35,010 nt of DNA from Acidobacteriota bacterium (lineage in GTDB: Bacteria > Acidobacteriota > UBA6911 > RPQK01 > JAJDTT01). Shown piece after piece: positions 1,592 to 33,305 of this stretch. Within the stretch, counting starts at the first letter, position 1. Each line of letters starts with the position of its first letter. The position numbers and the translations under genes are program-made. The DNA lies in NCBI GenBank assembly GCA_022827025.1, contig JAJDTT010000212.1, positions 1 to 35,010 on the forward strand. The letters are read 5' to 3'. The notes beneath the pieces were generated by a model, which was given only the letters and a program-made list of their open reading frames with translations, was not told the DNA's origin and did no database searches.

Positions 1592-1593
1592 CT

Positions 1594-1755
1594 AGGAGTC
1601 TGCGCGGTAGAAATGATCGTAGCGAGAAAGTGGAGAATCGAGGCCAGATTTTCACGATTTTGAGGTGCATAGTTGTTCTATTCGCCGAGGAATCGGGGAA
1701 ATATGGACCGATTCTACGCTTTCGCAGTAGATTGATTTCTGCCGCGCAGGCTCCT
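1594..1755 (+). mobile_element. 162-bp MITE-like element, copy A
   Basis: Begins AGGAGTCTGCGCGGTAGAA and ends with the imperfect reverse complement, so the arms are terminal inverted repeats of about 47 bp (about 36 of 47 positions match by eye; the outer 20 bp match at 18). It has no open frame of useful size and is visibly more AT-rich than its surroundings. A copy of exactly the same length lies inverted at 14792-14953. TA dinucleotides sit at both borders (1593-1594 and 1755-1756), compatible with insertion at TA as in IS630/Tc1-mariner-type elements; this family assignment is inference, because the outermost bases could also belong to the arm. Confidence 0.85.
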
Positions 1756-1790
1756 AAGTGAGAGCGGCGGGAAGAGGAGGCATTTAGCAG

Positions 1791-3119
1791 GTGATGGACA
1801 AACGACCCCTTCAATCCCGGTCCACCGCCGGTCGAGGACAATCGGCTTCCGGCGTCGTCATCCGGAGTCGTCTCCTGGCGGACGGAGTGTCCGGCAGCTC
1901 GCGGCCGGGCCAGGCGTTGTGGGTCCGGGAGGGCCGTATCCACGCCGTGGGCGCCAGGGAAGAAATCCTGAAGGCGGCGCCGCCGGAGACCTCCGTCATC
2001 GACCTGGGACGCGCGTGCTTGGCCCCTGGGCTGATCGACAGCCACACCCACCTGAGCCTGTCGGGAGACGGGCGCGACTACGCCGAGATGTTCTCCGACT
2101 CCGACGAGATGATGGTGCTCACGGGCGCCATGAACATGAAAAAGCACCTGGACGCGGGCATCACCACCATCCGGGAGCACGGCGCCCGAAACCGGGTGGG
2201 GTTCACCCTCAAATCCGGTCTCGCCCGCGGCTACATCCCGGGTCCCAGGATGCTGGTGAGCGGGCGCCCCGTCACCTGCACCGGCGGGCATTTCCACATG
2301 TGCAACGAGGTGGCCGACGGAGAGGCGGAGATCCGCAGGTCGGTCCGCCGGCTGGTCCACGAGGGCGCGGACTACATCAAGATCATGGCCTCCGGCGGCG
2401 GGACGGCGGGGACCATTCCGGGAGTGGCCACGTACACCGTCGAGGAACTTCACGCCGCCGCCCATGAAGCCCACCATTTCCATCGCTTGACGGCGGCTCA
2501 CTGCCGGGCCAAGGAGTCCATGCGCCGGGCCGTGGAGGCGGGCATCGACCTGATGGAGCACGCCGAGTTCCTGGACCCCGACGACAGGATGCGCTTCGAT
2601 CCCAGGATCGCCGAGATGATGGCGGAATCGGGCATCTGGGTCAGCCCGACCCTGCAGACCTGGTGCAACTATCCCCAGGTTCTGGAGCTGAGGCGGAAGC
2701 GGGATTCGGGTGAGGCCGCGCCCGCGGAGGAGAGTGAACTGGATCACCTCGAGGAGCGAATGGAGCGGCGCCTGGAGATCATGCGCCGCATGTTGGACTA
2801 CTGCCTGCGCGAGCGTATCGTTCCCGGAACCGATTCGGGAGTCTTCAACATCGCCTTCGGGCACCTGGATTACGATCTGCAGATTCTCCACAAGGTCGGA
2901 TTCACTCCTTCCGAGTGCCTGGCTTCCGCCACCCGCATCTCGGCCGAGGCCATCGGACTTCAGGACGAGATCGGAACCATCGAACCGGGAAAGCGGGCCG
3001 ACCTGGTGGCCTTGGACGGAGATCCGAACCAGGACGTGACCGCTTGCAGCCGGGTTCTGGCCGTCTTCCAGGCCGGAAGGCGGGTCTGGATCGAACCGGA
3101 GGACGCCTCCTCTCCATGA
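1791..3119 (+). CDS. Amidohydrolase, probable Xaa-Pro/Xaa-Arg dipeptidase-like (carboxylated-lysine subtype)
   Basis: 442 aa metal-dependent hydrolase of the amidohydrolase superfamily (imidazolonepropionase-like group). Metal ligands are readable: His85 and His87 in LIDSHTHLS, Lys197 in DYIKIMASGGG (the carboxylated lysine), His237 in TAAHCRAKE, His257 in LMEHAEF and Asp348 in PGTDSG. The KIMASGG signature is typical of the binuclear L-Xaa-L-Pro/Arg/Lys dipeptidases and related enzymes. No signal peptide is seen, so it is probably cytoplasmic. GAGGAGG at 1774-1780 is 10 nt from GTG 1791 and 13 nt from ATG 1794; either could be used. Its stop overlaps the start of the alkyltransferase-like gene (ATGA), so the two are cotranscribed. 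The exact substrate is not determined by the sequence. Confidence 0.85.
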   Translation: MMDKRPLQSRSTAGRGQSASGVVIRSRLLADGVSGSSRPGQALWVREGRIHAVGAREEILKAAPPETSVIDLGRACLAPGLIDSHTHLSLSGDGRDYAEMFSDSDEMMVLTGAMNMKKHLDAGITTIREHGARNRVGFTLKSGLARGYIPGPRMLVSGRPVTCTGGHFHMCNEVADGEAEIRRSVRRLVHEGADYIKIMASGGGTAGTIPGVATYTVEELHAAAHEAHHFHRLTAAHCRAKESMRRAVEAGIDLMEHAEFLDPDDRMRFDPRIAEMMAESGIWVSPTLQTWCNYPQVLELRRKRDSGEAAPAEESELDHLEERMERRLEIMRRMLDYCLRERIVPGTDSGVFNIAFGHLDYDLQILHKVGFTPSECLASATRISAEAIGLQDEIGTIEPGKRADLVALDGDPNQDVTACSRVLAVFQAGRRVWIEPEDASSP

Positions 3120-3442
3120 CGGCGGAAAAAGCATCCGGCGCCTGGCAGGGAGTCTACGCGCTGGTCCGGAGGATTCCGGAGGGCAAGGTCATGAATTACG
3201 GGCAGATCGCCCGCCTCCTGGACCGGCCCCTGTCGGCGCGCGCGGTGGGTTGGGCCATGCATTCCTGCCCTCCCGGCACCCCCTGGCATCGGGTGGTCAG
3301 CGCCACGGGCGAGTGTTCCACCGATCGGCTCGCCTCCCATCCCCGGGGCCTGCAAAGGGCGTTACTGGAAGCCGAGGGCGTCCGCTTCGGGTCCTCGGGC
3401 CGGGTGGACATGAACCGCTTCCGGTGGAACCCGCAGACGTAG
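3116..3442 (+). CDS. Alkyltransferase-like protein (ATL), MGMT-family DNA-damage sensor
   Basis: 108 aa, matching the C-terminal DNA-binding domain of O6-alkylguanine-DNA alkyltransferases. The recognition helix region (GQIARLLDRPLSARAVGWAM) and PWHRVV at residues 56-61 are clear. Trp57 replaces the alkyl-accepting Cys of the PCHRV motif, as in known ATL proteins (E. coli YbaZ, S. pombe Atl1). These bind alkylated guanine without repairing it and hand the lesion to nucleotide excision repair. The ATG at 3116 overlaps the upstream TGA, indicating translational coupling to a peptidase-like amidohydrolase, an unexpected partner. The stop codon TAG (3440-3442) lies within the first bases of a 27-bp hairpin repeat. 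Confidence 0.9.
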   Translation: MTAEKASGAWQGVYALVRRIPEGKVMNYGQIARLLDRPLSARAVGWAMHSCPPGTPWHRVVSATGECSTDRLASHPRGLQRALLEAEGVRFGSSGRVDMNRFRWNPQT

Positions 3443-3465
3443 GGGCACCCCTTGTGGGTGCCCTT
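3439..3465 (+). repeat. 27-bp hairpin repeat, copy 2
   Basis: GTAG, stem GGGCACCC, loop CTTGT, stem GGGTGCCC, with a perfect 8-bp stem. It overlaps the stop of the ATL gene and lies between convergent genes (ATL on plus, sialidase-like on minus), where it could terminate transcription from both sides (inference). Confidence 0.9.
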
Positions 3466-3525
3466 CCTTGAAACTCCGCTTGGATAAGCTGACCGGCGGC
3501 ACGTTCTCTGTCGTGCGGCGTCGTT

Positions 3526-4647
3526 TCACACGCGGACCCGGGCCCAGTGGACGCTGAGGCGGCGTTCGTTCTCGCCGGCGTAGTAGGCAAGCAGAAGCAG
3601 ATCGTCTTTCAGCAGGACCGCTGCAGGGTGCCCGAAGGTCCACTTCACCATGTCGTCCCAGAACTCGCTCAGGTCCTCCCGAGCGCCCATACCCCGCTCT
3701 TTGGCACCCCCTGAGTCGTAGACGATCAACTCCCCCGACAGATCCCAGGTCCTGCCCCCATCCCGCGACAGCACCAGCCGCAGGCTGCCCGGGGGGTGGC
3801 GGTGCACGTAGAAAAGCCCCAGACGGCCGTCGGGCAACGGCACCGGGACAGCGATCTGTCCCCGGACCCCCGTGGTGAAGGGTGGTTCCCAGGTCAGAGT
3901 CTCCGGGTCCCCCCAGGACAAGTGGATTGCCAGGTCCTTCCGCGACAAGCGGTCGTAGGTCCAGAACGCGGCCACCGGACGTCCCGTTCGCGGGCAGACC
4001 GCCTGGCGCTGGTCGTAGAAGAAGACGCGGTCCGCCGGATCCCTGGCCACGTCGATGACCTGATTGAAGATCCCCTCCTCCTCCGCCAGCAGGGCGTGGG
4101 CCGAATGGAGGCTCGGTCCCCCCTCCCGTTCCGGTTCCTGCCGTTCGAACGGCACCACCCAACCGCGGCCCGGAATGGGGATCGGACTTCCGCCAAGCAC
4201 CGGAAAGTCCCACGGCGACGTGTCCAGGACTTCGTAGCCGGACCAGGTCGCGCCTCCATCCGTGGAGCGCGCCTGGATGATGCGGCACGGCGCCACGTGA
4301 TCGCCCCCGCTGTCATACAGGGGCCGGCCGCCGGACCGGTGAAGCCAGGTGAGAAAAGCAAGCAGACTGCCGTCGGACAGAGGAATGATCTCGGCCGACC
4401 GCACCTCGCCCGGCACGCCGGTGAAGCCGGGCCGGAAGCTGTCGGACACGATCCGCCAATGGCGGCCGCCATCGTCACTCGAGACGACCAGGCAGTTGCC
4501 GTCCGCCGATTCCTTGTCGCTTCCCCGGCGGAAGGTGGCCAGCACTCGTCCTTCGGGTAGCCGGCACAGGGAAGTGAAGCAATGGGACCTCTTGCCCCCG
4601 CGCAGATTCCCGGCGTCGATGATATGGCCCCGCTCCAATAACTCCAT
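3526..4647 (-). CDS. Sialidase-like BNR-repeat protein (predicted six-bladed propeller)
   Basis: 373 aa from ATG 4647; an in-frame start at 4710 would add 21 residues containing part of the hairpin repeat and is not preferred. Asp-box motifs are visible: SSDDGGRHW (56-64), STDGGATW (128-135) and SRDGGRTW (294-301). The C-terminus (HPAAVLLKDDLLLLAYYAGE) resembles the last blade of exo-alpha-sialidase-family proteins common in Planctomycetota and Acidobacteriota. No signal peptide is seen, unusual for a secreted glycosidase. Many such proteins have no proven sialidase activity and I could not confirm an arginine triad, so the function is best left as sialidase-like carbohydrate-active or binding protein. 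It follows the Tat-exported amidohydrolase in the same direction, 91 bp downstream, with a hairpin repeat between. Confidence 0.75.
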   Translation of the reverse strand: MELLERGHIIDAGNLRGGKRSHCFTSLCRLPEGRVLATFRRGSDKESADGNCLVVSSDDGGRHWRIVSDSFRPGFTGVPGEVRSAEIIPLSDGSLLAFLTWLHRSGGRPLYDSGGDHVAPCRIIQARSTDGGATWSGYEVLDTSPWDFPVLGGSPIPIPGRGWVVPFERQEPEREGGPSLHSAHALLAEEEGIFNQVIDVARDPADRVFFYDQRQAVCPRTGRPVAAFWTYDRLSRKDLAIHLSWGDPETLTWEPPFTTGVRGQIAVPVPLPDGRLGLFYVHRHPPGSLRLVLSRDGGRTWDLSGELIVYDSGGAKERGMGAREDLSEFWDDMVKWTFGHPAAVLLKDDLLLLAYYAGENERRLSVHWARVRV

Positions 4648-4696
4648 TTCGGTCCCCGTTCGCCAATCGCTTCTTTCTCCGAGACGACGAGTCGAC

Positions 4697-4723
4697 GAGG
4701 GCACCCACAAGGAGCGCCCCTAC
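4697..4723 (-). repeat. 27-bp hairpin repeat, copy 3
   Basis: On the minus strand: GTAG, stem GGGCGCTC, loop CTTGT, stem GGGTGCCC. Two changes in the left stem relative to copy 2 both leave G-U type pairs, so the RNA stem is preserved. It lies between the amidohydrolase stop and the sialidase-like start. Confidence 0.85.
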
Positions 4724-4738
4724 ACTGCCATACATCAT

Positions 4739-5932
4739 TTACCCGGCGACCCCGTAGATTCGCGCCGCGTTCCCTCCCAGGACCAGACTGCGGTCCTCGT
4801 CCGTCATGAACTCGGTGTGGTGGCGGATGGTGTCGATGCACTGCTTGTAGGTGCAGGCCCGCCCCGCCCACGGCATGTCGGCTCCCCAGAGCATGATCCG
4901 GGCCCCGAAGCACTCGTAGATTCTGCGGATCATATCCTTGTGCCGCGGGTAGGGAAACTCGGAATCTCTCGCTCCCCAGACTGCCTCGTTCTCCCAGGCC
5001 AGGACGTAGCCGAACTCCAGGTGGAAGTTGCCCAGCTTGAAGAGCTCGAAGAACTCCGTCGGGTTGTCCACATGGTTGGGATCGGAGGGCGGCAGCACGT
5101 TGCTGCCCTGGTGAGCGTTCACCGCCTGCAGCTCCGGGAACCGGCGGCAGACGTTTTCGATCTCTCCGATCTCCCGGAGGTAGTCCCCCTTGGAGTTGAA
5201 ACCGGTGTCCAGAAACACCGGGATTTTCAACCGGATGCAGGCCTTCCAGAGGGCGTCGGCGCGGGGGTCGTCCCGGGGTTGCCCCTTGGGCATGTGGGAG
5301 CAGAGTCCCCGGTACCCCAGCTCTTCGACGGCTCTTTCCAAGGTTTCCAGCTCGCTCGCCAGATGCGAGTCGTCCTTGGTCAGGTCGTAGTCGATGTCGG
5401 TGGTTCCGATGAAACGGTCGGGCCAGCGGCGAATGCAATCGGCGTAGTAGACTTCCCGGCCCCAGACCTTGGCCATGTATCCGGTCTGGATCACTCCCAT
5501 GTCCACGCCCACGATGTCCATGTGGGCCAACATCTGCTCGGGTTCATGGATGGGGTCGGACATGGTCTGGGGTCCACGGCGGATCCAGCAGTCCTCACCA
5601 TGTTTTCGCCATCTCCAGATGCCGTATTTTCCCTGGGTGAACCCGACCTCCTCGTCCGGTTCCGGGATGTACCTGGGGTCGGTGTGGCTGGCGACGAACC
5701 TCCCCCAGAGGCTCCGGACGGCGCCCTGCATGATGCGATTGTGAGTATCCGGATCGTCGTAACCGAGAGCGCCGGTCTGGTCGGGGAAGACATGCAGGTG
5801 GTGGTCGATGACCAGGGAGCGTTCGGGAGTTTCGGAGGAACAACCCGAGGCGGTCCAGGTTCCGGCGAATCCGGGGACGGCCAGGGCGGCCGAGCCGGTC
5901 AGAAAACGGCGTCGATCCAGGTTCGGGTTCAT
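4739..5932 (-). CDS. Tat-exported metal-dependent hydrolase (Amidohydro_2 family)
   Basis: 397 aa. The N-terminus carries a twin-arginine signal (DRRRFLTGSAALAVPGFAG) followed by ASGCSS with Cys31, a possible lipobox, so a Tat-exported lipoprotein is likely. The mature protein starts with the metal-binding HxH at residues 45-47 (IDHHLHVF). NAHQGSN and LWGADMPW later in the chain supply further His and Asp candidates of the barrel. Amidohydro_2 proteins include decarboxylases and lactonases; the exact substrate is not recognisable. The start at 5932 is well supported by AAAGGAG eight bases upstream; an upstream in-frame start at 6103 would bury the Tat signal 57 residues inside. Divergent from the LLM monooxygenase across a 169-bp region. 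Confidence 0.85.
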   Translation of the reverse strand: MNPNLDRRRFLTGSAALAVPGFAGTWTASGCSSETPERSLVIDHHLHVFPDQTGALGYDDPDTHNRIMQGAVRSLWGRFVASHTDPRYIPEPDEEVGFTQGKYGIWRWRKHGEDCWIRRGPQTMSDPIHEPEQMLAHMDIVGVDMGVIQTGYMAKVWGREVYYADCIRRWPDRFIGTTDIDYDLTKDDSHLASELETLERAVEELGYRGLCSHMPKGQPRDDPRADALWKACIRLKIPVFLDTGFNSKGDYLREIGEIENVCRRFPELQAVNAHQGSNVLPPSDPNHVDNPTEFFELFKLGNFHLEFGYVLAWENEAVWGARDSEFPYPRHKDMIRRIYECFGARIMLWGADMPWAGRACTYKQCIDTIRHHTEFMTDEDRSLVLGGNAARIYGVAG

Positions 5933-6011
5933 GGCGGCAGCTCCTTTCGGTTCATGGAATTCAGACAACATCCGGGGCCACCCGGTGTCGCCGTACCGGC
6001 AAGGCCCGATC

Positions 6012-6040
6012 TTGTGCCCTTGCAAAACGTGACCTATCAT
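6012..6040 (+). promoter_or_regulatory. Possible sigma70-like promoter for the LLM monooxygenase
   Basis: TTGTGC, 17-bp spacer, TATCAT (5 of 6 to TATAAT; the -35 box matches only 3 of 6). It lies about 60 bp upstream of the preferred start at 6102. Tentative. Confidence 0.25.
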
Positions 6041-6101
6041 GATGGACGTTCGCCCGAAAGTGAACGTGCCGGGCATTGGAAACGCCAAGGGGAGCCATTC
6101 C

Positions 6102-7205
6102 ATGGACGCTATCGACTACGGCATTTTCATCATGCCCTTCCACCCTCTGGAGAAGCCTCGCGCGCAGTGCCATGACGAGGACCTGGAACTGATCGTCCGG
6201 GCCGACGAACTCGGGTTCAGCGAGTTCTGGATCGGTGAGCATCACACCATGAAATACGAGAACATCGTGATGCCCGAGATCTTCATCGCAAGGGCCTTGG
6301 GGGAGACCAGCCGGATTCGGCTGGGTCCGGCTCCGGTCTGTCTCAATCAGCACCATCCGGCCCACGTGGCCTGCCGGCTGGCCTTTCTGGACCACCTCTC
6401 CAAGGGCCGGCTCAATCTCTGCTTCGGCCCGGGCAGCGTGCCGGCGGATCAGCTTCTGTACGGCGCGTCCCCCAGGAACGCCGCGGCGATGGCGGCCGAG
6501 GCCACCGACATCATCTTGCATCTCTGGGAGTCGGATCCTCCCTATGAGTACGACGGAGAGTTCTGGTCCATCCGGCTCGACGATCAGGTGGACGAGGAGA
6601 CGGGAGTCGGCTTCATCCCCAAGCCGTTCCAGCATCCTCATCCTCCCATCGCCGCTCCGGGCACGAGCCGCAATTCCGGGACCATGAAGGCGGCCGGACG
6701 GAGGGGATTCCAGCCCTTCGGACATTGCCTGGTGACGTCCAACGTGCTGCGGAACTTGTGGCAGACCTACGAAGAGGCCGCTCTGGAGGCAGGGCGCACG
6801 CCGGATCGCAAGGACTTCAAGATCGCGCGGTCCATTTTTCTGGCCGACACCACCGGGGAGGCCCGCGCCCGCGCCCGGACCAATTCGGTGGCCGGCAACT
6901 ACGAATACATCGGCGGAATCCTGGACAAGGGACCGGGACGCGCCATGTACAAGCGCGACCTGAACATGAGCGACGCCGATTGCAATCTGGATTTCCTCAT
7001 GACGGAGCAGATCATCGCGGGAGACGTGGACGAAGTGTTGCGGCGGCTGTTGCTCATGGTGGAGGAAGTCGGCTCCTTCGGCACCCTGATTCTCATGTGT
7101 TACGACTGGGACGACAAGGCGAGCTGGCTCCGCAACCTGGAGCTGTTCTCCAAGGAGCTCATGCCCCGGCTGAACCGGGCAGTCGGTGCGCCGGCGGTTG
7201 CCTGA
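6102..7205 (+). CDS. LLM-class flavin-dependent oxidoreductase (bacterial luciferase-like)
   Basis: 367 aa. A luciferase-like monooxygenase that would use reduced FMN and oxygen to oxidise a small organic substrate. Features: the YGIFIMPFHP start strand, ADELGFSEFWIGEHH (a hallmark of the family), GETSRIRLGPAPVCLNQHHP, and KGRLNLCFGPG followed by the long insertion before the C-terminal barrel strands. ATG 6102 is preferred because AAGGGGAG lies about 9 bases upstream and the protein then begins just before the first barrel strand; an in-frame start at 6039 overlaps the possible -10 box. A reductase gene is not adjacent, so flavin must come from elsewhere. It is 46 bp upstream of the M20 gene on the same strand, probably one transcript. 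Confidence 0.88.
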   Translation: MDAIDYGIFIMPFHPLEKPRAQCHDEDLELIVRADELGFSEFWIGEHHTMKYENIVMPEIFIARALGETSRIRLGPAPVCLNQHHPAHVACRLAFLDHLSKGRLNLCFGPGSVPADQLLYGASPRNAAAMAAEATDIILHLWESDPPYEYDGEFWSIRLDDQVDEETGVGFIPKPFQHPHPPIAAPGTSRNSGTMKAAGRRGFQPFGHCLVTSNVLRNLWQTYEEAALEAGRTPDRKDFKIARSIFLADTTGEARARARTNSVAGNYEYIGGILDKGPGRAMYKRDLNMSDADCNLDFLMTEQIIAGDVDEVLRRLLLMVEEVGSFGTLILMCYDWDDKASWLRNLELFSKELMPRLNRAVGAPAVA

Positions 7206-7251
7206 GTTCCCCGATGAGCCCGCCGGGCCTGACCCAACTACCCTGAAAGCA

Positions 7252-8430
7252 ATGATACTGAGCCAGGACCTGGTCGAACGTGTCAACCGGGCCGTCCGTC
7301 CGGACCGGTTGACGGAATTGGCCGTCGAGTTGATCCGGATCCCCAGCCCGACGCAGAACGCCGCCGAGGTAGCGGACCGTCTGGCGGAATTTCTGGCGGA
7401 CGAGGGTTTCGATGTCGGCCGGCCGGAGGCCGCGTGGCCCCGGTCCCCGGCCGTGGTCACCCGGTACGAGACTGGAGTTGCAGGTCGAACCCTCCAGTTC
7501 AACGGCCACCTGGACACGGTCCATCTCCCCTTCGTTGCACCCCACATCGAGGATGGATTCCTCTACGGAAGCGGGGCCTCGGACATGAAGGCCGGCGTGG
7601 CCGCCATGTGCGAGGCCTTGCTGGCGGTGCGGGATGCGGGCGTCCTGGAAGCCGGCGGGATCTTGTTGACTGCTCATGACCTTCACGAAGCTCCGTGGGG
7701 CCAGGGCCAGCAACTGTCGGCGTTGATCGAAGAGGGGTACGTGGGAGACGCGGCGCTGTTGCCGGAGTATCTCTCCAGCATATTGCCCGTCGTGGGCCGG
7801 GGCATGGCCAACGTGGAAGTGACCCTCAGCCGGCAGGGAAGCCCGGTCCATGAGGTTTTGGGAGGTTTGGAGCAGCCGCGAGTGATTGCCGCCGGCGCCG
7901 ACCTGGTGACCCGGCTCGATGCCGCTGACCGGAGCTTGACCGGCGACACGCATCCCCTGGCCGGCCGGGAGAGCATCTTCATCGGCAAGGTCGCCGGGGG
8001 GGAGATCTACAACCAGTCCCCGACCGAGTTTCGTCTCGCCGGCACCTGCAGGTGGTTGCCGGGGACGCCCGTAGACATGGTGAGGAAACGGTTTCGCGAT
8101 GCCGTCGACGGGATGCGGCAGCGGCCCGGTATCCAGGTCGACGCCCAGTTTCACTACCGCCGGGGCGCCTTCGAGATGGACCTGGAGCATCCCCTGGTGG
8201 GCGCGTTTGACGATTCCTGCCAGGCGGTCATGGGCCGAACGCTGGCTCATGGCGCCAAACCCTTTATCGATGACGGAAATACCCTGATGGAGCTGGCCGG
8301 CATCGAGGCCATCACTCACGGTCCGAACGCCACGGGGGCTCACACCACCAGCGAGCGGGTGCCGCTCGATGATCTGGTCCGGGTGGCCCGTGTCTACGCC
8401 TGCACTGCGGTCGCTTTCTGCGGCGGATAG
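7252..8430 (+). CDS. M20-family metallopeptidase/deacylase (ArgE/DapE-like)
   Basis: 392 aa from ATG 7252; an in-frame start at 7186 would overlap the LLM gene and add an unconserved leader. Metal-site residues: His86 and Asp88 in NGHLDTV, Asp111 in GSGASDMKAG, Glu146, Glu172 in LLPEYLS and His364 in GAHTTSERV. The usual catalytic Glu-Glu pair reads His145-Glu146 (AHDLHEAPWG), so the general-base position is His rather than Glu; this could mark a divergent subfamily with altered chemistry or a changed substrate. M20 enzymes hydrolyse N-acyl amino acids or dipeptides in the cytoplasm. Gene order (LLM oxygenase, M20, aminotransferase, deacetylase) suggests processing of an N-acylated or peptide-like compound. 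Confidence 0.85.
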   Translation: MILSQDLVERVNRAVRPDRLTELAVELIRIPSPTQNAAEVADRLAEFLADEGFDVGRPEAAWPRSPAVVTRYETGVAGRTLQFNGHLDTVHLPFVAPHIEDGFLYGSGASDMKAGVAAMCEALLAVRDAGVLEAGGILLTAHDLHEAPWGQGQQLSALIEEGYVGDAALLPEYLSSILPVVGRGMANVEVTLSRQGSPVHEVLGGLEQPRVIAAGADLVTRLDAADRSLTGDTHPLAGRESIFIGKVAGGEIYNQSPTEFRLAGTCRWLPGTPVDMVRKRFRDAVDGMRQRPGIQVDAQFHYRRGAFEMDLEHPLVGAFDDSCQAVMGRTLAHGAKPFIDDGNTLMELAGIEAITHGPNATGAHTTSERVPLDDLVRVARVYACTAVAFCGG

Positions 8431-8483
8431 GAAAGAGAAACGAGGAAAGAGTAACGAGTGAAGGAACAAGAATCGGCCGCACA

Positions 8484-8540
8484 GTCCGGCCCGGAGCGAC
8501 GTAGTGGCGCCCCAGGCCGGGACAAGGACCGCCGCCACTC
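8484..8540 (+). repeat. Degenerate tandem partner of hairpin repeat copy 4
   Basis: GTCCGGCCCGGAGCGACGTAG at 8484-8504 is repeated almost exactly at 8542-8561, where it runs into the 27-bp hairpin repeat. The first unit carries its own inverted repeat, AGTGGCG (8503-8509) and CGCCACT (8533-8539). The unit spacing is 58 bp, so the segment looks like a diverged duplication of flank plus hairpin. Confidence 0.5.
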
Positions 8541-8557
8541 TGTCCGGTCGGAGCAAC

Positions 8558-8584
8558 GTAGGGGCACCCCTTGTGGGTGCCCTC
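8558..8584 (+). repeat. 27-bp hairpin repeat, copy 4
   Basis: GTAG, stem GGGCACCC, loop CTTGT, stem GGGTGCCC, identical in its first 26 bases to copy 2. It lies between the M20 gene and the aminotransferase gene and may end the upstream transcript. Confidence 0.9.
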
Positions 8585-8631
8585 TTTGATTCTCCGCTCG
8601 CCAGGCTGGTGGTAACCAAGGATTCTGAATT

Positions 8632-10062
8632 ATGACGGAACGAGAAACGCAAAATCAGAATGGGCCGGAACAGTCCGGAGCGCCCGCCGGGCACGCTTCC
8701 TTTCCTCCCGAAAGGATGGGCGAGGAACAGTTCCTGCGCCAGATCCTGGTACGGGCCCAGATGAGCGAGTTTGCCCAGGATCCGTTCATCATGTCCCGGG
8801 CCAAAGGAGTCCACTACTGGGACGTCCACGGGAAGAAATACCTGGACGGGATCTCGGGGATCTACGTGGTCTCCGTGGGGCACTCCAATCGGCGGGTCAT
8901 GGACGCCATCCGCAAGCAGATGGAGGTTTTGCATTTCTCTCCCACCATGCATGGCAGCAATCCTCTGGCCCTCGAACTGGCCAACCGGCTGGTGGCCGTG
9001 GCTCCGGGAGACCTGGACGCGGTGAAGTTTCTGAGCGGAGGATCGGAGGCGACCGAAGCGGCCATCACCATGGCACGCCAGTACCACCGGCTGTCCGGGA
9101 ACCCCACCAAGTACAAGATCATCTCCCGCTACCAGTCCTGGCACGGCTCGACCATGGGGTCCCTCTCCGCATCGGGTCTGACCAGCCGGCGGAGCATGCG
9201 GGAACCGTTGGCTCCGGGTTTCATCCACGTCTTTCCCCCCACCTGCTACCGCTGCCCCTTCGGCATGGAATACCGGGATTGCGGGATCCTCTGCGCCAAA
9301 CTGGTCGGCGACGTGATCGAGAATGAAGGTCCCGACACCGTCGCCGCCGTCATCGTGGAGCCCATCGGCCACACCGGGGGCATCATCGAGCCGACCGAGG
9401 AATACCTGCCCCTGTTGCGGGAGATCTGCGACCGGCATAACGTGCTCCTCATCTTCGACGAGATCATCACCGGCATGGGGCGCACCGGGCAGATGTTCGC
9501 CGCCGATACCTTCGGCGTCCTGCCCGACCTCCTCTGTGTGGGGAAGGGGCTGTCGGGCGGGTACGCGCCACTGTCGGCGCTGCTCTGCCGCAGGCATATC
9601 GCCGATACCTTTTGGGGAGATCCGGCCACCAATCCCGGCTTCGTCGCCGGTCACACCTTCGAGGGAAACCCCATTTCCTGTGTGGCCGGCCTGGCGACTC
9701 TGTCGGAGATCCTGGAACGGGATCTCTGTGGCAACGCCAGGAGTGTGGGAGCTCACCTCCGGCGCGGACTGGAGGGGCTCCGCCGCCACGGCATCATCGG
9801 CGACATTCGAGGACGGGGACTCTTTCTCGGTATGGAGTTCGTCCGGAATCCGGAGACCAAGGAACCCTTCTCCGACCGGATCTCCATCGGCAAGCGCATC
9901 GGCAAGCGGGCGCTGGAACATGGCTTGCTGACGCGGTTCGATCCCAACTGGATCGCACTGGGACCGCCACTCATTCTGACCGCCGAGGAGGCCGACCAGA
10001 TCGTGGAGATCCTGGATCGCAGCATCGGTGAAGTCCTCGAGGAACTGGAGGAATCGGAATGA
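8632..10062 (+). CDS. Class III (omega-type) aminotransferase, PLP-dependent
   Basis: 476 aa. PLP-binding elements are clear: FLSGGSEATEAAITMARQ (133-150), Asp276 in LLIFDEIITG contacting the pyridine nitrogen, and Schiff-base Lys305 in CVGKGLSGGYAPL. A conserved YQSWHGST precedes them. Class III members include 4-aminobutyrate, acetylornithine, taurine/beta-alanine and diaminopelargonate transaminases; the sequence alone does not choose between them. The insertion with cysteines at 205-221 (CYRCPFGMEYRDCGILC) is seen in a subset of the family. No signal peptide, so cytoplasmic. The 3' end overlaps the deacetylase start (ATGA), implying a coupled step in one pathway. Confidence 0.9.
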   Translation: MTERETQNQNGPEQSGAPAGHASFPPERMGEEQFLRQILVRAQMSEFAQDPFIMSRAKGVHYWDVHGKKYLDGISGIYVVSVGHSNRRVMDAIRKQMEVLHFSPTMHGSNPLALELANRLVAVAPGDLDAVKFLSGGSEATEAAITMARQYHRLSGNPTKYKIISRYQSWHGSTMGSLSASGLTSRRSMREPLAPGFIHVFPPTCYRCPFGMEYRDCGILCAKLVGDVIENEGPDTVAAVIVEPIGHTGGIIEPTEEYLPLLREICDRHNVLLIFDEIITGMGRTGQMFAADTFGVLPDLLCVGKGLSGGYAPLSALLCRRHIADTFWGDPATNPGFVAGHTFEGNPISCVAGLATLSEILERDLCGNARSVGAHLRRGLEGLRRHGIIGDIRGRGLFLGMEFVRNPETKEPFSDRISIGKRIGKRALEHGLLTRFDPNWIALGPPLILTAEEADQIVEILDRSIGEVLEELEESE

Positions 10063-11234
10063 CGGATGTCTCCGAACGCTACGACCTGCTTCTCAAAGGG
10101 GGGACGGTGGTCGATCCGGCCAACGGGCGGCGAGGTCTCCTAGACGTGGCCGTCAAGGGGGGCCGGGTGGCTGCCGTCGGGCGGGACCTGCCGGTCGAGG
10201 GTTCGGCCCGGGTGTTGGATGCCTCCGGCCGCTTCGTGGTTCCCGGCCTCATCGATCTGCACGCCCATGTCTACATCGGGGTCTCGTTTTTCGGTATCGA
10301 GGCGGACGATCTCGGTCCCCGCACCGGGGTCACCACCATGGTCGACACCGGCTCCGCCGGCTGGACCAACTATGAAGGATTGGAACGTTTCGTCATCGGG
10401 CCCTCCGAAACTCGCATTTTCGGGTACGTGAACCTGTCCGGTGTCGGTCTTCCGACGCGTCGCGGAGAACTGGTCCATCATGACTATCTGGATGCCCGCG
10501 AGTGTGCCGAGTGCGTCCTGCGCCATCCGGAGACCACCTTGGGCGTCAAGGTCCGTCTCTACGAGGGTGTGGCCGGTTCCATGGACTTGCGCGATGTCCT
10601 GAAAGCCGCCCTGGAGGCGGCCGAGCTGTGCGGAAAACCCCTCATGGTTCATATCAGCGGGGGAAATGTCCCTCTGGAGGACCTGCTGCCACCCCTTCGG
10701 ACCGGAGATGTGGTGACCCATTGTTACCACGGGTTCCCGGTGGGCTCGATCCTGGACCGGGAGGGAAGGATCCTTCCCGTGGTCCGGGACGCCCGGGAAC
10801 GCGGGGTCCTGTTCGATGTGGGCCACGGTTCGGGGAGCTTCGCGTTTCGCGTCGCGCGCTGTGCATTGGAGGAGGACTTCCTCCCCGACGCCATCAGCAC
10901 CGACGTTCACACCTTGTCCATCAAGTACCCCGTCTACGACATGCCCACCACCCTCTCCAAGTTTCTGGGCCTGGGCCTCTCTCTGGATAAAGTCATCGAG
11001 CGGGGCACCATCGAACCGGCCCGGATCATCGGCATTGACTCCGACCTGGGACACCTGGGCGTGGGCGCCACGGCCGATGTCGCGGTGTTTGAGTTGGAGG
11101 AGGGCCGGTTCTCCTTCTTCGACGTGGAGGACGAAGAATTGATCGGACCTCAAAGGCTGGTCTGCAAAGCGACCATCAAGGACGGCAGGGTCTGGTGGCG
11201 CGCCGGCGAGACCGGACAGTCGGCCGAGGACTGA
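10059..11234 (+). CDS. Amidohydrolase/deacetylase-family metallohydrolase (Atu3266/EF0837-like)
   Basis: 391 aa cytoplasmic amidohydrolase of the dihydroorotase-like branch. Ligands: His68 and His70 in LIDLHAHVY, carboxylated Lys164 in GVKVRLYEG, His198 in MVHISGG, His221 in THCYHG and Asp282 in STDVHT. A characterised member (Atu3266) deacetylates acetyl-(R)-mandelate and N-acetyl-D-amino acids have been discussed as substrates of relatives; the true substrate here is unknown. It is translationally coupled to the aminotransferase, whose stop is inside its ATG. It ends only 9 bp from the stop of the convergent DHDPS-like gene, with no hairpin between. Confidence 0.87.
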   Translation: MTDVSERYDLLLKGGTVVDPANGRRGLLDVAVKGGRVAAVGRDLPVEGSARVLDASGRFVVPGLIDLHAHVYIGVSFFGIEADDLGPRTGVTTMVDTGSAGWTNYEGLERFVIGPSETRIFGYVNLSGVGLPTRRGELVHHDYLDARECAECVLRHPETTLGVKVRLYEGVAGSMDLRDVLKAALEAAELCGKPLMVHISGGNVPLEDLLPPLRTGDVVTHCYHGFPVGSILDREGRILPVVRDARERGVLFDVGHGSGSFAFRVARCALEEDFLPDAISTDVHTLSIKYPVYDMPTTLSKFLGLGLSLDKVIERGTIEPARIIGIDSDLGHLGVGATADVAVFELEEGRFSFFDVEDEELIGPQRLVCKATIKDGRVWWRAGETGQSAED

Positions 11235-11243
11235 CTTCCCGCA

Positions 11244-12167
11244 TCAGAGAACCCCCAGCCCTTCCAGGTGATCCCGCAGGACCTCCATTTCCCCGTCGGA
11301 CAGGGAGTAATGGGGTTTGCGTCTCCACCGCCCGGCGACGCCGTAGATCTCCAGCATGCCGTGCAGGCCCGCGTCGAACCCTCCCTGCAGTTTCGCCAGG
11401 AAGTCGAACAGCGGCATGTCACAGGTCTGGATCACCTCTCTGGCCTGATCCAGGTCCCCCTCCTGAATGGCGGACCAGTATCGGCGGGCGATCCGGGGAC
11501 GGAAGCCGATATAGGTCGACATGTATCCGTCGCAGCCGTACGGATGCAGGTCCAGGTGATTCTGCTTGTGACCGCCGGAGAAGACCGCCCATTGCTCGTG
11601 CACCAGCAGGCACATGCGCCGTGCAAACTGGCCGAGGAAGTCGTTCTTGATGGCCACGATCCCCTCGACCTGCTCCACCAGGACCTTCAGGGTCTCCAGT
11701 CCGAAGTCGCTCCCCCGGGGGATGAAGAGATTGGTCACCAGCATCACCGGGATCTCCCGGGCCACGGCGCCGTAGTGTTCCACCAGGGTCCGGGTCGTGC
11801 ATGAAGCGGCCCAGTCGGGCGGGAGCACCATCATGACGTCGGCGCCCATATCGCGGACATGCCGGGCGAAGTCCACCGCACGGCTCGTGGAGTGACGGCG
11901 GTCCGCGGCCACCACCAGGGCGCGTCCGGCGGTCTGCTCGGCGGTGACGCGGGTGACCTCGGCAATCTCGGAATCGCTCAGGATGTGGAAGTGACTGTCC
12001 CCTGCCGTGAGGAGCACGGTGCCGGCCCCGTTTTGGATGTTGCGCTCGATGTGGTTTCTGAGACCGTCGGTGTCCACACTTCCATCTCGGTGAAACGGGG
12101 TCCGGATCGATCCGAAGGGGCCGGTCAGCGCCGAGCGGATCTCCTGTCGAGTCCACTGTCGATTCAT
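11244..12167 (-). CDS. Dihydrodipicolinate synthase/N-acetylneuraminate lyase-family aldolase, divergent
   Basis: 307 aa from ATG 12167, whose ATGA overlaps the symporter stop. The Schiff-base lysine is present: Lys174 in GIVAIKNDF. Two family signatures are altered: the YNxP tyrosine is replaced (VMLVTNLFIP, Thr145), and the GTTGE loop reads LLTAGDSHF. The active site therefore differs from DapA and NanA, as in other DHDPS-like subfamilies acting on keto-acid sugars, hydroxyproline intermediates and similar compounds. A role in lysine synthesis is unlikely. It is the last gene of a dehydrogenase-symporter-aldolase operon, consistent with uptake and cleavage of a small acid or sugar acid (inference). 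Confidence 0.82.
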   Translation of the reverse strand: MNRQWTRQEIRSALTGPFGSIRTPFHRDGSVDTDGLRNHIERNIQNGAGTVLLTAGDSHFHILSDSEIAEVTRVTAEQTAGRALVVAADRRHSTSRAVDFARHVRDMGADVMMVLPPDWAASCTTRTLVEHYGAVAREIPVMLVTNLFIPRGSDFGLETLKVLVEQVEGIVAIKNDFLGQFARRMCLLVHEQWAVFSGGHKQNHLDLHPYGCDGYMSTYIGFRPRIARRYWSAIQEGDLDQAREVIQTCDMPLFDFLAKLQGGFDAGLHGMLEIYGVAGRWRRKPHYSLSDGEMEVLRDHLEGLGVL

Positions 12168-13702
12168 GGAGTGAGCTCCCTCTTCCGAAAGTCCCTGGCC
12201 CCCACCCACGGGGCGCCGACGCGCCGGAAGAAGGACACGCGGCGGCGAATCTCCTCTGCAGAGGGCCGGTCCAGGTGGCTGATCAGAATCCCCACGAGGC
12301 AGATGCCCGGCATCAGGTAGACGTAGATCCAGCGGGCCCAGACGGGGTACGGAACGACCGGATCGGCCAGCACGTTGGCGTAGATGGCCACGGCCAGACC
12401 CAGAGTCCAACCCAGCAGCAGACAGGCGGTGGCGGCCCGCCGGCTCGCCTTCCACCAGAGGAATCCGAAGACGCAGGGGAAGAACATGGCCGCGAAGAGG
12501 GTGTTCCCGAACAGGTTGATGACGACCAGCAACTTGCCCAGCAGAGTCGTGCAGAGCAGGAGAGTGATGAGGCCCATGACCAGCGTCAGCTTGCGCCCGA
12601 CCCGCAACTGGTCCGCGTCGGTGGCGTCGGGCCGGAGCCATCCCTTGTAGAAGTCACGGACCATCATGGCCGAGGTCGTGTTCCAGATGCTGGACATGGT
12701 GGTCTGGCAGACGGCGAAGAGCATGGCCAGCATCAGTCCGCGGACGCCGGGTCCCAAAAAGAGGTTGATGGCTCCACCCACGGCCTGATCCGGATCCTCC
12801 AGGCCCGAATGTTGTCCGTGATAGACGAGCGTGGCCACCTGGCCGCAGGCATAGAGCAGGGTCGTGGCCAGGGCGGCGATGCCCACCGCGGCGAAGGCGG
12901 TCTTTTCGCTTCGGGCCGCGAACATCCGCTGCCCGTACCAGGGCGCCAGGGGATAGCACAGGAGAATGACCACGTTCAGAGTGACGATGAAATGGAGGGG
13001 TAGAACGGGGTCGGGATCCACGGATCCGTAGGAGTGGAACAGCGGTTCCGGCGCAGCGTACTGGAGAGCGCTGATGGCCAGGATCGGCAGCACCACTACG
13101 GTGACCACCAGAGACGCGGTGTCGGTGAAGGCCACCGAGATCAGGCCGCCGGCCCAGGTGAAGATGAGGACGGTGGTGCTGATGACGAGGGCGGTCCAGA
13201 CCAGGGTCCGGTCCGCCGTGATCCAACCCGGCACCAGCGCCCCCGACGGTGCAAGGCCCAGGGCCGAGGAGAAGGTCTTGCTGGTGGCGATGAGGTAGCC
13301 CGAGGAGAAGAGGGTCAGGATCACCGTGGTGACCAGGCTGACGGCCCGGCGCAATCCGAGGGAGTACCGGGCCTCGAACATTTCGGCGATGCTCACCGCC
13401 TGCAGCCGCTGCCAGCGGCGCGCCACCAGCAGTCCGTAGCTGCCGAGTCCGGTGATGAAAATCAGGCAGAGCCAGGCGGCGCGGGGCCCGGCGGTGTAGC
13501 TGATGCTCCCGAACCAGATCATGGTGGAGGGGTTGAACTCGGTCATCACCAGCGTCCCCACCAGGGCGAACATCCCCAATTGCCTGCCGGCGACGGTGTA
13601 GTCCAGCGAGGTGCGGACACGGCGCGACACCCAGAGTCCGTAGCCGAGGGCGCCGAGGGCGTAGAACGCCACGATGCCCAGGTCGATCCAGTTCCCGCTC
13701 AT
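12164..13702 (-). CDS. Sodium:solute symporter (SSS family)
   Basis: 512 aa integral membrane protein with about 13 predicted hydrophobic segments. The SSS signature occurs near the N-terminus: SLDYTVAGRQLGMFALVGT followed by FNPSTMIWFGSISYTAG. It should carry a small solute into the cell with sodium. Substrates of SSS proteins include sugars, amino acids, proline, pantothenate and sialic acid. The neighbouring aldolase of the DHDPS/NanA superfamily makes a sugar acid or keto acid plausible (inference). The start at 13702 is 9 bases from the end of the dehydrogenase gene (6-bp gap) and the stop overlaps the aldolase start. The cytosolic C-terminal tail (RRVGAPWVGARDFRK) is encoded by DNA resembling the local hairpin repeat. 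Confidence 0.9.
   Translation of the reverse strand: MSGNWIDLGIVAFYALGALGYGLWVSRRVRTSLDYTVAGRQLGMFALVGTLVMTEFNPSTMIWFGSISYTAGPRAAWLCLIFITGLGSYGLLVARRWQRLQAVSIAEMFEARYSLGLRRAVSLVTTVILTLFSSGYLIATSKTFSSALGLAPSGALVPGWITADRTLVWTALVISTTVLIFTWAGGLISVAFTDTASLVVTVVVLPILAISALQYAAPEPLFHSYGSVDPDPVLPLHFIVTLNVVILLCYPLAPWYGQRMFAARSEKTAFAAVGIAALATTLLYACGQVATLVYHGQHSGLEDPDQAVGGAINLFLGPGVRGLMLAMLFAVCQTTMSSIWNTTSAMMVRDFYKGWLRPDATDADQLRVGRKLTLVMGLITLLLCTTLLGKLLVVINLFGNTLFAAMFFPCVFGFLWWKASRRAATACLLLGWTLGLAVAIYANVLADPVVPYPVWARWIYVYLMPGICLVGILISHLDRPSAEEIRRRVSFFRRVGAPWVGARDFRKRELTP
12195..12225 (-). repeat. Possible degenerate hairpin repeat inside the symporter gene
   Basis: On the minus strand this reads GTCGGCGCCCC then GTGGGTG, resembling the 27-bp repeat with the loop shortened and the right stem altered. 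It encodes VGAPWVGA, close to VGAPLVGA given by an intact copy in the same frame. Weak: GC-rich coding sequence could produce this by chance. Confidence 0.35.
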
Positions 13703-13708
13703 GACAGG

Positions 13709-14728
13709 CTAGTCTTCCTGAGCCCAGTCGAACACGGCGGCGATGAGATCCTTGGAGTGCTCCCGGGCCAGTTCGTACGCTTCCTTCATGCGCTCGGGCG
13801 GGTAGCGGTGGGTGATCAGGGAATCGAATCGCATGTCCCTGGTGGCCAGGAGGCTCATGATGTACTGGAGGTTCCTCCGGATGTTGAAGCGGAGGTCCGA
13901 GGCCGGGGCATCGGTGGAAGGAGCAGATCCGGAGCCCAGGAGCGTGAGCTGCTTGGCGTAGAACCACCTGGGGTCCAGCGGATTGAAGTCGGGAGGCTCG
14001 TCAAACCTTCCGGGAAATCCCAGAATGCTGATCCGGCCTCCGGTGCGGGCGATGTCCACCGAGAGCCGGTAGGCCGGCCAGGGATTCGCGGTGAGGATGA
14101 CCAGGTCCGTCCCCTCCTCGCCGAAGGTCTCGGCGAGACAGTCGCCGAGACCCGGGTCCCGGTACTCGATGGCGGCGTGGGCGCCCATCTTCAGGGCGGC
14201 CGCCGACCTTTTGGGGGAGTTGGAGATGGCCACCACCTTGGCCCCCATGGCCCGGGCGAGTCCCACGGTGCACAGTCCGATGATGCCCAGACCCACCACG
14301 GCGACGTTTTCTCCCGTCTCGTACTTCGCCTGCCGGATTCCGGCCAGGCCCAGGTGGGTGAGATACGCCAGCGACGCCTCGTCGGAGGGGACCCCGTCCG
14401 GAATCGGAGTCAGCACCTCGTCGTCGCCGGCGATGAAGGCGGACTGGTGATAGTGGCGCGAGAAGATTCTCTGGCCCGGACGGAATTGGGTGACCGCCGA
14501 CCCCACCCTGCGAATCACTCCCACGTTGGAGTAACCCACCTGACGCGGGTAGTCGGGCGCGTCGGGAACATAGGTGGAGTCGCCCAGGTAGTTGCCCAGA
14601 TCGGTTCCCGTGGAGAGCGCCGAAACCAGGGTCTCCACGTAGAGCTGGTTCGGTTCCAGAGCGTCGCTGTCGAGCTCCCGCTCCTCCACTCGAAGGTCCC
14701 TGGCTCCGTACAGAAAGGCCGCTTTCAT
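13709..14728 (-). CDS. MDR-superfamily zinc-independent-looking dehydrogenase (alcohol/threonine dehydrogenase-like)
   Basis: 339 aa. The NAD(P)-binding Rossmann fold is marked by VAVVGLGIIGLCTVG near residues 142-156. In the catalytic domain the usual zinc-binding Cys position reads ALSTGTD, resembling the ISTGTE motif of BchC-like and related MDR dehydrogenases; a GHE motif is not seen, and the region with structural zinc cysteines is also absent. It probably oxidises a polyol or hydroxyacid, substrate unknown. First gene of the minus-strand operon; GGGAG about 9 bases before ATG 14728 supports this start. The 162-bp element copy B sits about 60 bp upstream, so its promoter may lie in or next to that element (inference). 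Confidence 0.82.
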   Translation of the reverse strand: MKAAFLYGARDLRVEERELDSDALEPNQLYVETLVSALSTGTDLGNYLGDSTYVPDAPDYPRQVGYSNVGVIRRVGSAVTQFRPGQRIFSRHYHQSAFIAGDDEVLTPIPDGVPSDEASLAYLTHLGLAGIRQAKYETGENVAVVGLGIIGLCTVGLARAMGAKVVAISNSPKRSAAALKMGAHAAIEYRDPGLGDCLAETFGEEGTDLVILTANPWPAYRLSVDIARTGGRISILGFPGRFDEPPDFNPLDPRWFYAKQLTLLGSGSAPSTDAPASDLRFNIRRNLQYIMSLLATRDMRFDSLITHRYPPERMKEAYELAREHSKDLIAAVFDWAQED

Positions 14729-15097
14729 GCTGCTGTCTCCCTTGTCGTATCGACGTGATCAGTGACGTTGCCGGACCGCGCGCGCCGTACTAGGAGCCTG
14801 TGCGGCAGAAATTAATCTACTGCGAAAGCGTAGAATCGGTCCATATTCGTGCGATTTCTCGGCGAATAGACCAACTATGCACCTCAAAATCGTGAAAATC
14901 TGGCCTCGATTCTCCACTTTCTCGCTACGATCATTTCTACCGCGCAGACTCCTGGCCCCGCATCCGACAAGGGCGCAGGATATAGCAACCCCGGGGAACG
15001 GACAACCGGTCCGGTCGCAGGATTATCCCCGGCTGACAGGGGGGCTATTTGGTCGGCCGGTCCATTGTTAGCGTATTAGGATTTTAGGGTTCGGCGC
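14729..15097. other. Non-coding region carrying the second 162-bp element
   Basis: Between the start of the MDR-SSS-aldolase operon and the end of the helicase gene. It consists of about 60 bp upstream of the dehydrogenase, the 162-bp element (14792-14953), and about 140 bp with a hairpin at the helicase 3' end. No other gene is visible. Confidence 0.7.
14792..14953 (-). mobile_element. 162-bp MITE-like element, copy B (inverted)
   Basis: Reverse complement of copy A at 1594-1755: same length, about 8 differences by eye (about 95% identity). Most of the differences cluster in a short patch about one third of the way in (around 14848-14858). TA precedes the left end (14791-14792), while the right end is followed by TG, so the duplicated TA is not intact here. 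No transposase is in the window, so any movement would need one in trans. Confidence 0.85.
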
Positions 15098-15108
15098 CTA
15101 AAATACGC
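15071..15108 (-). terminator. Hairpin at the end of the helicase gene
   Basis: ATTTTAGG (15081-15088) and CCTAAAAT (15097-15104) form a perfect 8-bp inverted repeat with an 8-nt loop; GCGT (15071-15074) and ACGC (15105-15108) could extend it past a bulge. The helicase stop codon lies in the stem. No U-tract follows, so a rho-independent role is uncertain. Confidence 0.35.
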
Positions 15109-17002
15109 CGCTCCAAGACGCCGCTCCAGTTCGGTGCCTCCACTCGAAGAAGTCTCTGGCCTTGTCCAATTCGGGGCACGGTTCCTCGTCGGCGACGAGA
15201 TACAGAGTCTCCTTGGCGCGCGTCATACCCACGTACAGGCGGTCCAAGTCGAGCTGTCGAACCTCCCGCTCCTCGTCCGTGGTTTCTCGAACCGCAGCCG
15301 CCAGACCTGGGATGGGCCTTTGGAGGTACCGTCCTTCCTCCTTTTGAGGGAAAACGGAAGCTCCTATGCGCGGGATGAAGACGGCGCGAAATTCCAGACC
15401 CTTGCTGCGGTCGAAGGTTCCGACACGCACGCCGTCGCCGAGGCGCCCTTCGCGCATGTCCCTCAACAGGGTGCATGGGATGCGCTTTCGGGAAAGCGCC
15501 TTTCGGGCGCGGTCGGCATCGGCATTGCTGCGCATCAGCACGCCGATGGACCCGTAGGTCAGGCCGTTCTCGCGGACCAGATTCTGGATCTCGGCGGCGA
15601 TGGCGGGAACTTCGCCCTTCCGGCCGACTCGAATGAAGACCGGGCTGGGACCCGTTTCCTGCTCGAACTCTGCATGCAGAGCGGCGCCGTCGTCGTTGTC
15701 TTCCTGAACTGGCAAGGTGTCTCCGCGAACGGCTTTCGCTGCTTCGATGATGGGTCGTGTGTTGCGGTAGTTGGTCTTCAGGATCTCGGAACGTCCCTTC
15801 ACTTGAATGCCGGCCCAGCGCAGGCGGAACCCTCCCGCGTAGATGCGTTGGGCGGCATCGTCCAGGATCAGGATGCCGTCCCGGGGCACTCGATTCTCCG
15901 GTTTGCCCGCGACCAGAGCCCGGACGAGCTGCATGCCAACCAGAGTCATGTCCTGGGCCTCGTCGACGATGGCGGCCCGATACTCTCTCGACTCCTGTGC
16001 CCGGGCCCGATCTCGCGCCTGGATCAGGACATCTGCGAAACTCGTCGTCCCGGCCTTGCACATTTTCTCATCCCAGGTTTCCCGAAGCTTCCAGCAGAGT
16101 TCGCGGTCGGCGCGACCGAGTTTATGTTTTCGCCCGAGGCGCTCGAACCGGCCCGTGTCGAGATATTTCGCGCGGGTCGCCGCCCGGCCCTTGATGATCT
16201 TGTCGATCTCTTCCTTCAGGTAATCACTGCTGCATCGCTCCAATGCGGTGCCCGGAACGATTTCCCGGTAGGCGGCGTCGAACGCCGCTTCCACCTTCTG
16301 CGGGTCGATCCACTGCTTTGACGGGTTCGGAATCAAGCGATATGCGACTCGGTCGATGTTGAAAAATACGACGTTCTTTGGAGCATGAGGCAATCTCCCG
16401 TACAACTGGTGGAGGTGCTCTGTGAGTGATCGGCTGAACGTCGTAAACAGTATTTTCCCGTCTGCATACCGCCGCCCGAGTTCCGCCGCCCGATGCAGGG
16501 CGACAACGGTCTTGCCGGTGCCGGCTGCCCCCCGAATGCGAGCCTCTCCTCCGTAATAGTGGCGCTTCACCAACGGCTCCTGGTCCGGGTGGAGGAACAG
16601 TTGCCACTCTTCAAAGTCGAGCAGCGAGGCTAAAGCCTGCGCAGGTTCCTCATCGGGCGGCGCCACATCCCGCAGATTCACTGTGCGTTGGGCGTCGGCG
16701 GAATAGTTGCGCCGCCTGGCCCACTGGTAAGCTGCATCGTGATGGCCGGCGTGCAGCAGCACGACCCTCTCGGGATTCTGGAATTCGGGCTCCACCGCCA
16801 GGATCACCCGCAGCTCCCTCGACGCGCGTATCGAGCATTGGGTCTGTCGGGTGGTGCTGACCAAGGACTCGTAGTTCAGGCTCGGGTGAAACGGGTTGGC
16901 AAAAAACCTGTCAATGGCGTTGGTGCACCGCATCTTCTCGTCATCTGAGAGCGATGTGCGGCTAAAAGCGCGATAAAAGGAGCGAGCGGAGGTTATTTCC
17001 AT
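15098..17002 (-). CDS. UvrD/Rep-like superfamily 1 helicase with N-terminal RelE/ParE-like domain
   Basis: 634 aa. Residues 1-97 look like a RelE/ParE-type fold: FYRAFSRTSL, FANPFHPSLNYESL, SIRASRELRVIL and LLHAGHHDAAYQWA, a pattern found in a known group of helicase fusions. Helicase motifs follow: HPDQEPLV (Q-like), Walker A GAAGTGKT (158-165), Walker B AIVDEAQD (344-351), LILDDAAQRIY (378-388), LKTNYRNTRPI (408-418), VGTFDRSKGLEF (527-538) and RLYVGMTRAKETLYLV (588-603). It is shorter than UvrD and lacks the large 1B/2B insertions. It stands alone, with no antitoxin or partner gene beside it. Function could be DNA repair, RNA/translation-linked surveillance or defence; not resolved. The start at 17002 precedes the conserved N-terminus; divergent from cpdA-like gene across 104 bp. 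Confidence 0.88.
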   Translation of the reverse strand: MEITSARSFYRAFSRTSLSDDEKMRCTNAIDRFFANPFHPSLNYESLVSTTRQTQCSIRASRELRVILAVEPEFQNPERVVLLHAGHHDAAYQWARRRNYSADAQRTVNLRDVAPPDEEPAQALASLLDFEEWQLFLHPDQEPLVKRHYYGGEARIRGAAGTGKTVVALHRAAELGRRYADGKILFTTFSRSLTEHLHQLYGRLPHAPKNVVFFNIDRVAYRLIPNPSKQWIDPQKVEAAFDAAYREIVPGTALERCSSDYLKEEIDKIIKGRAATRAKYLDTGRFERLGRKHKLGRADRELCWKLRETWDEKMCKAGTTSFADVLIQARDRARAQESREYRAAIVDEAQDMTLVGMQLVRALVAGKPENRVPRDGILILDDAAQRIYAGGFRLRWAGIQVKGRSEILKTNYRNTRPIIEAAKAVRGDTLPVQEDNDDGAALHAEFEQETGPSPVFIRVGRKGEVPAIAAEIQNLVRENGLTYGSIGVLMRSNADADRARKALSRKRIPCTLLRDMREGRLGDGVRVGTFDRSKGLEFRAVFIPRIGASVFPQKEEGRYLQRPIPGLAAAVRETTDEEREVRQLDLDRLYVGMTRAKETLYLVADEEPCPELDKARDFFEWRHRTGAASWSGVF

Positions 17003-33278: not shown

Positions 33279-33305
33279 GTAGGGGCGCCCCTTGTCGGCG
33301 CCCTC
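33279..33305 (+). repeat. 27-bp hairpin repeat, copy 5
   Basis: GTAG, stem GGGCGCC, loop CCTTGTC, stem GGCGCCC. Compared with copies 2 and 4, both sides of one stem pair changed together (A-T to G-C), keeping complementarity. It lies just after the Gfo/Idh gene and before the ASPIC-protein gene. Confidence 0.85.

Follow-up and report, generated by a model that had tools for sequence, protein, structure and literature searches.

What are the two nearly identical sequences that lie in opposite orientation, 13 kb apart, in this Acidobacteriota DNA, and how did they come to be there? The window, that is, the whole stretch of 35,010 nucleotides analysed here, is one entire contig of a 5.3-Mb, 318-contig Acidobacteriota genome. 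An earlier note, made from the sequence alone, had described the pair as 162-bp inverted repeats of about 95% identity without coding capacity and had read them as members of a MITE family whose transposase is elsewhere. On the evidence presented below, it is almost certain that both, here called copies A and B, are copies of a 158-bp non-autonomous MITE of the IS1182 family, ISKpn6 group.

Borders and surroundings of copies A and B

The inverted pair itself is real: a repeat search returned 1583-1756 and 14791-14964 as an inverted repeat (93% complementary), and in the similarity search of the genome B was 95% identical to A. Its length had to be corrected. Borders drawn from the alignment of many copies place the mobile core at 158 bp, running from GAG to CTC, beginning GAGTCTGCGCGGTAGAA and finishing TTCTGCCGCGCAGGCTC, and the 162 bp of the earlier note correspond to this core plus one copy of the target (Table 1). 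Copy A lies between a MetE-like gene (PF01717), which ends with a TGA stop at 1591, and an amidohydrolase gene about 35-40 bp downstream, while copy B is situated 61 bp upstream of the start, at 14728, of an MDR-type/zinc-dehydrogenase gene.

Table 1 Positions of the MITE copies, their target-site copies and their terminal inverted repeats in the window.
Feature	Position	Strand	Sequence and remarks	Basis
MITE copy A	1596-1753	+	158-bp core, GAGTCTGCGCGG...CCGCGCAGGCTC	Sequence, repeat and similarity searches
Left target-site copy of A	1592-1595	.	CTAG; directly 3' of the MetE-like TGA stop	Statistics of target-site duplications
Right target-site copy of A	1754-1757	.	CTAA; one mismatch to CTAG	
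Left terminal inverted repeat of A	1596-1614	+	GAGTCTGCGCGGTAGAAAT	Sequence and IS1182 end comparison
Right terminal inverted repeat of A	1735-1753	-	Minus strand reads GAGCCTGCGCGGCAGAAAT	
MITE copy B	14794-14951	-	158-bp core	Sequence, repeat and similarity searches
Target-site copy of B, low-coordinate end	14790-14793	.	CTAG	
Target-site copy of B, high-coordinate end	14952-14955	.	CTGG	

The window holds other repeats as well. A palindromic motif, AGCGGCGTNTTTTAGGCGCCGA, occurs near copy B (15091-15112) and was also found inserted in another copy of the element, which is 212 bp long (L041, 1525-1546). A second interspersed palindromic repeat, GTAGGGGCRCCCCTTGTGGGYGCCCTC, is present five times and in both orientations (149-175, 3439-3465, 4697-4723, 8558-8584 and 33279-33305) and also exists in the congener G001 (L171). 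The last gene of the window contains repeated DYDNDGxLDL-like coding repeats (33525-34684) that by eye are of the FG-GAP/VCBS type.

Abundance, spread and insertion sites of the element

We took a census of copies by pattern and similarity searches of the genome. At least 86 left-arm copies were found when up to 3 mismatches were allowed, so the repeat is not confined to A and B. With up to 2 mismatches, the end sequence had 103 + 101 = 204 matches, compared with 2 + 2 = 4 for the reversed control pattern, an abundance far beyond chance, and in total the genome carries about 90-100 dispersed copies. Many contigs of this genome begin or end within a copy, showing that the element has broken the assembly, too. 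It is also present in three congeners (73, 35 and 13 end matches) and in one genome from another family of the same order (G011, 28 end matches). Within the named genome collection it occurred in three MAGs only, titled uncultured Acidobacteriota, Acidobacteria and Candidatus Aminicenantes, and the plasmid, phage and viral collections gave no match. Copies within the genome are on average 94% identical to each other, the core measures 158 bp in 66 of the 85 analysed copies, and copies from one genome tend to cluster together (12 label changes versus 24 when shuffled).

Several length variants were noticed. At L210 and L240 (G000:C110 and C81), two different places, copies carry an identical additional hairpin of 40 bp close to the right end and total 198 bp, so the longer variant itself has spread; a further 198-bp copy, at L120, was rejected as a true variant because it holds a run of N. 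Recurrent short derivatives are 38 bp long, which fits a deletion between the TAGA at position 13 and the TAGA at position 133 of the core. In the right arm, blocks of the GGGGAA type or the GCACGA type (columns 100-105 of alignment A2) are combined variously with other variable sites, and these combinations look mosaic, as if copies recombined or underwent conversion.

We compared the flanking 4-mers of the 82 copies for which both flanks were available with flanks shuffled among copies. They were identical in 47 of the 82 copies, compared with 22.2 in the shuffles (maximum 33 in 2000 shuffles). Most of the identical pairs are CTAG, but identical pairs other than CTAG, including CTGG, CCAG, CCGG, TTAG and TCTA, were also in excess (16 versus 2.7 expected, maximum 10), indicating that the 4-mer is a target-site duplication and lies outside the element. 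The unlike flanks of the remaining 35 copies must reflect decay, occasional 5-bp duplications or rearrangement. Furthermore, the orthologous sites of A and of B are both empty in the congeners G001 and G003, where the flanks are 85-91% identical, and none of the 85 analysed copies shares its insertion place, although copies of the relatives were only sampled. The element is thus short and dispersed, lacks a transposase gene, has 19-bp inverted ends and is accompanied by target-site duplications and empty sites, the features by which prokaryotic MITEs are defined. The copy number, the duplications and the empty sites, together with the IS1182 ends found in other bacteria (see below), bear out the MITE reading of the earlier note.

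The same note had pointed out that recombination between A and B could invert the segment between them. The opposite orientation, the identity of about 95% and the distance of 13 kb would suit a unit, invertible or composite, able to flip or relocate the intervening DNA. However, neither insertion is present in G001 and G003, and there the flanks of each empty site run collinear with those in the window; the segment contains a single junction, at 12188/12189, where no copy is located. With about 90 copies spread over the genome, a facing pair at 13 kb is to be expected anyway. We found no sign of an A-B inversion in the relatives and regard such a unit as extremely improbable. In G001 as in G003, the sequences to the left and right of 12188/12189 belong to separate contigs; this lineage may have been rearranged there, or the break may stem from a misjoin.

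Terminal sequences and the source transposase

Returning to the non-autonomous MITE, the question was which transposase had moved it. We traced IS1182 elements in relatives via their transposases; these elements have CTAG as target, and their ends begin with GAG. Two of them belong to the same order. In G017, CTAG is followed by GAGTCTGCGCGGCAGGAA and the IS1182 transposase starts 45 bp inside the end (NF033551, E=1.5e-57); in G004, CTAG followed by GAGCCTGCGCGCCAGAAAA adjoins, about 30 bp inside the end, a broken transposase with 68-85% protein identity to that of G017. Among plasmid-borne transposases, that of G017 is closest to those of the IS1182 elements of Halomonas sp. KO116 and Marinobacter sp. 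M3C and of ISKpn6. At both of their ends, these elements read CTAG followed by GAGTCTGCGCGGCAG (Halomonas, about 1.6 kb), by GAGTCTGCGCGGTAGAA (Marinobacter, about 1.5 kb) and by GAGYCTGCGCGGCAGA (ISKpn6), and all three share with our element CTAG followed by GAGYCTGCGCGGYAG; the first 17 bases of our element, that is, of its left terminal inverted repeat, are identical to the ends of the Marinobacter element. They differ from it in being about 1.5-1.6 kb long and in carrying a transposase. The 17-bp ends together with the CTAG target identify IS1182, ISKpn6 group, as the source family, which the earlier note could not name: full-length elements with the same ends and a transposase do exist, in other bacteria. 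From these end sequences, the element was presumably moved by an IS1182 transposase.

Targets of 4 bp resembling CTAG are not unique to IS1182, and IS5 and IS701 elements can have such duplications. Because of the CTAG target, we considered IS5/IS427 and IS701 as sources. That a transposase of such another family mobilized the element would also accord with the lack of a good IS1182 transposase in this genome. Against this stand the 17-bp ends, which, including the target, are identical to those of independent IS1182 elements and nearly identical to those of IS1182 elements in the same order. In addition, searches for DUF4096 (PF13340), without any hit, and for DDE_5 (PF13546), without a hit in this genome, yielded nothing usable, and the matches of this genome to PF01609 (DDE_Tnp_1) lack the element's ends. 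Hence, IS5/IS427 and IS701 were dismissed as sources, and we attach hardly any probability to mobilization by another transposase family.

Within IS1182, the partner was sought in this genome and its relatives. Only degraded IS1182/IS5-like fragments without the element's ends were found in this genome, and an intact IS1182 transposase with these ends was detected neither here nor in G003 or G011. In this respect, too, the expectation of a transposase elsewhere held, since the assembled genome yielded no matching one; the source transposase has presumably disappeared since, escaped assembly or come from outside. The IS1182 elements of the congeners G001 and G002 (L103, L160, L161 and L165) encode an IS1182 transposase (NF033551) and resemble the element in their CTAG target and in ends beginning with GAGNCTG. 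However, their end is a different one, GAGSCTGTCCGAGAA, continuing with TCCGAGAA, whereas the ends of our element continue with CGCGGYAGAA, so that they are probably not its partner. Another short IS1182-type element of about 114-118 bp was observed at L278, 1337-1450 (G000:C269); its ends, CTAG followed by GAGSCTGTCCGAGAA, are those of the G001 IS1182 elements.

Hairpin, neighbouring genes and comparison with known elements

The entire element is a quasi-palindrome for which a full-length hairpin is possible. The predicted RNA fold of the plus strand reaches -83.6 kcal/mol, compared with -56.0 kcal/mol for the minus strand, and this much better folding of one strand made selection at the RNA level look attractive at first. 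Modelled on proposals for some enterobacterial and neisserial repeats, the element might be a structured, conserved RNA or a hairpin with a regulatory role, such as a transcript stabilizer or processing site, maintained at these sites by selection. The alignment offers some points in this direction, as 96.2% of the pair cells are kept and the stem columns are less variable than the unpaired columns. Two further measures, the count of cells with both-sided changes and the covariation score, also exceed all shuffles, an excess that relatedness alone can produce. However, both-sided changes are found in only 4 of the 64 pairs, a value that was reached in 30 of 500 shuffles. Of these pairs, the one with the largest number of doubly changed sequences is columns 11/148, where a G-C to C-G exchange in ten sequences sits inside the transposase-binding ends and alters both ends in matching fashion. 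The G.U excess on one strand was 6 versus 2 (p=0.29), the orientation relative to co-directional neighbouring genes was 32 versus 21 (p=0.17), no Rfam family matched in the window, and two congeners have empty sites in place of A and B, as described above. The strand asymmetry, the orientation bias and the covariation were thus unconvincing, and we consider an RNA kept by selection very unlikely. The earlier note had named a structured RNA with covariation as the result that would overturn its proposal; neither Rfam nor the covariation supported one here. The hairpin is real as a potential structure predicted by folding, but an RNA function is not supported.

The placement of the MITE relative to genes was assessed for 79 copies with a codon-usage gene caller. 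No copy (0/79) lies inside a gene, and 22 of the 79 directly adjoin a TAG stop codon whose three letters belong to the CTAG target. The earlier observation that A and B each sit directly beside a gene end was confirmed for A, after the stop, and for B, upstream of the next gene; CTAG targeting accounts for at least part of this proximity to gene ends, as the target can contain the TAG stop. By contrast, the suggestion that the copies supply terminators or promoters found no backing: neither a sigma-70-like promoter nor a T-tailed terminator was present within copy A or copy B, and neither region has a promoter-like site. If transcribed, the long predicted RNA hairpin could nonetheless affect read-through or mRNA stability. 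In-frame insertion into genes was also considered, as the core plus target amounts to 162 bp and one frame is open, and was rejected because no copy was within a gene. In this, the element differs from the Rickettsia-type palindromic elements, which insert in frame inside protein genes, and the view that it has no coding capacity is right in practice.

Taken together, a likely course of events would begin with an IS1182 DDE transposase that, in trans, recognizes and binds the 17-19-bp ends GAGYCTGCGCGGYAGAA(AT) and mobilizes the element, which would insert into a CTAG-like 4-bp target that is duplicated. Copies would then persist only in intergenic DNA, in many cases right at the end of a gene, where CTAG can hold the TAG stop. 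The long hairpin is probably tied to the build of the element or its mobilization, and any effect on neighbouring transcripts is putative.

Our analysis names a high-copy IS1182-type MITE in an uncultured Acidobacteriota genus and identifies its autonomous family by the ends, which explains both the contig breaks inside copies and the copies placed exactly at gene ends. The element is a candidate substrate for ISKpn6-group transposases acting in trans. Not all members of the IS1182 family treat their targets alike: IS1272 of Staphylococcus takes the place of an inverted repeat at its target and generates no short duplication (PMC5678879), whereas the element described here, although linked to the same IS family, shows a 4-bp duplication. 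The closest precedent is MITEPye1 of Paracoccus yeei, which has 159 bp, IS1182-like terminal inverted repeats of about 18 bp and 4-bp direct repeats, is intergenic, can form a long RNA stem-loop, has no open reading frame and is present in 1-3 copies per chromosome (PMC11578231). Compared by description, the two agree in length, IS1182 ends, 4-bp duplication, intergenic location and hairpin, and differ in that MITEPye1 has 1-3 copies per chromosome in Alphaproteobacteria and our element about 90-100 in Acidobacteriota. It is thus an element of the same kind as MITEPye1, in another phylum and at a far higher copy number, and a second, far more abundant example beside the very few IS1182 MITEs found in the literature searched. 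In G006, from another family of the order, we observed a 160-bp element (L132, 1501-1660) with the same ends and a largely different interior that is weakly similar to ours in the same orientation (z=4.1). It is a rather doubtful, though conceivable, extension that IS1182-dependent MITEs measuring about 158-161 bp and quasi-palindromic over their full length constitute a class that recurs or is very old and whose length and hairpin are selected; if so, the element described here (158-161 bp), that of G006 (160 bp) and MITEPye1 (159 bp) would share a structural need for mobilization or host tolerance.
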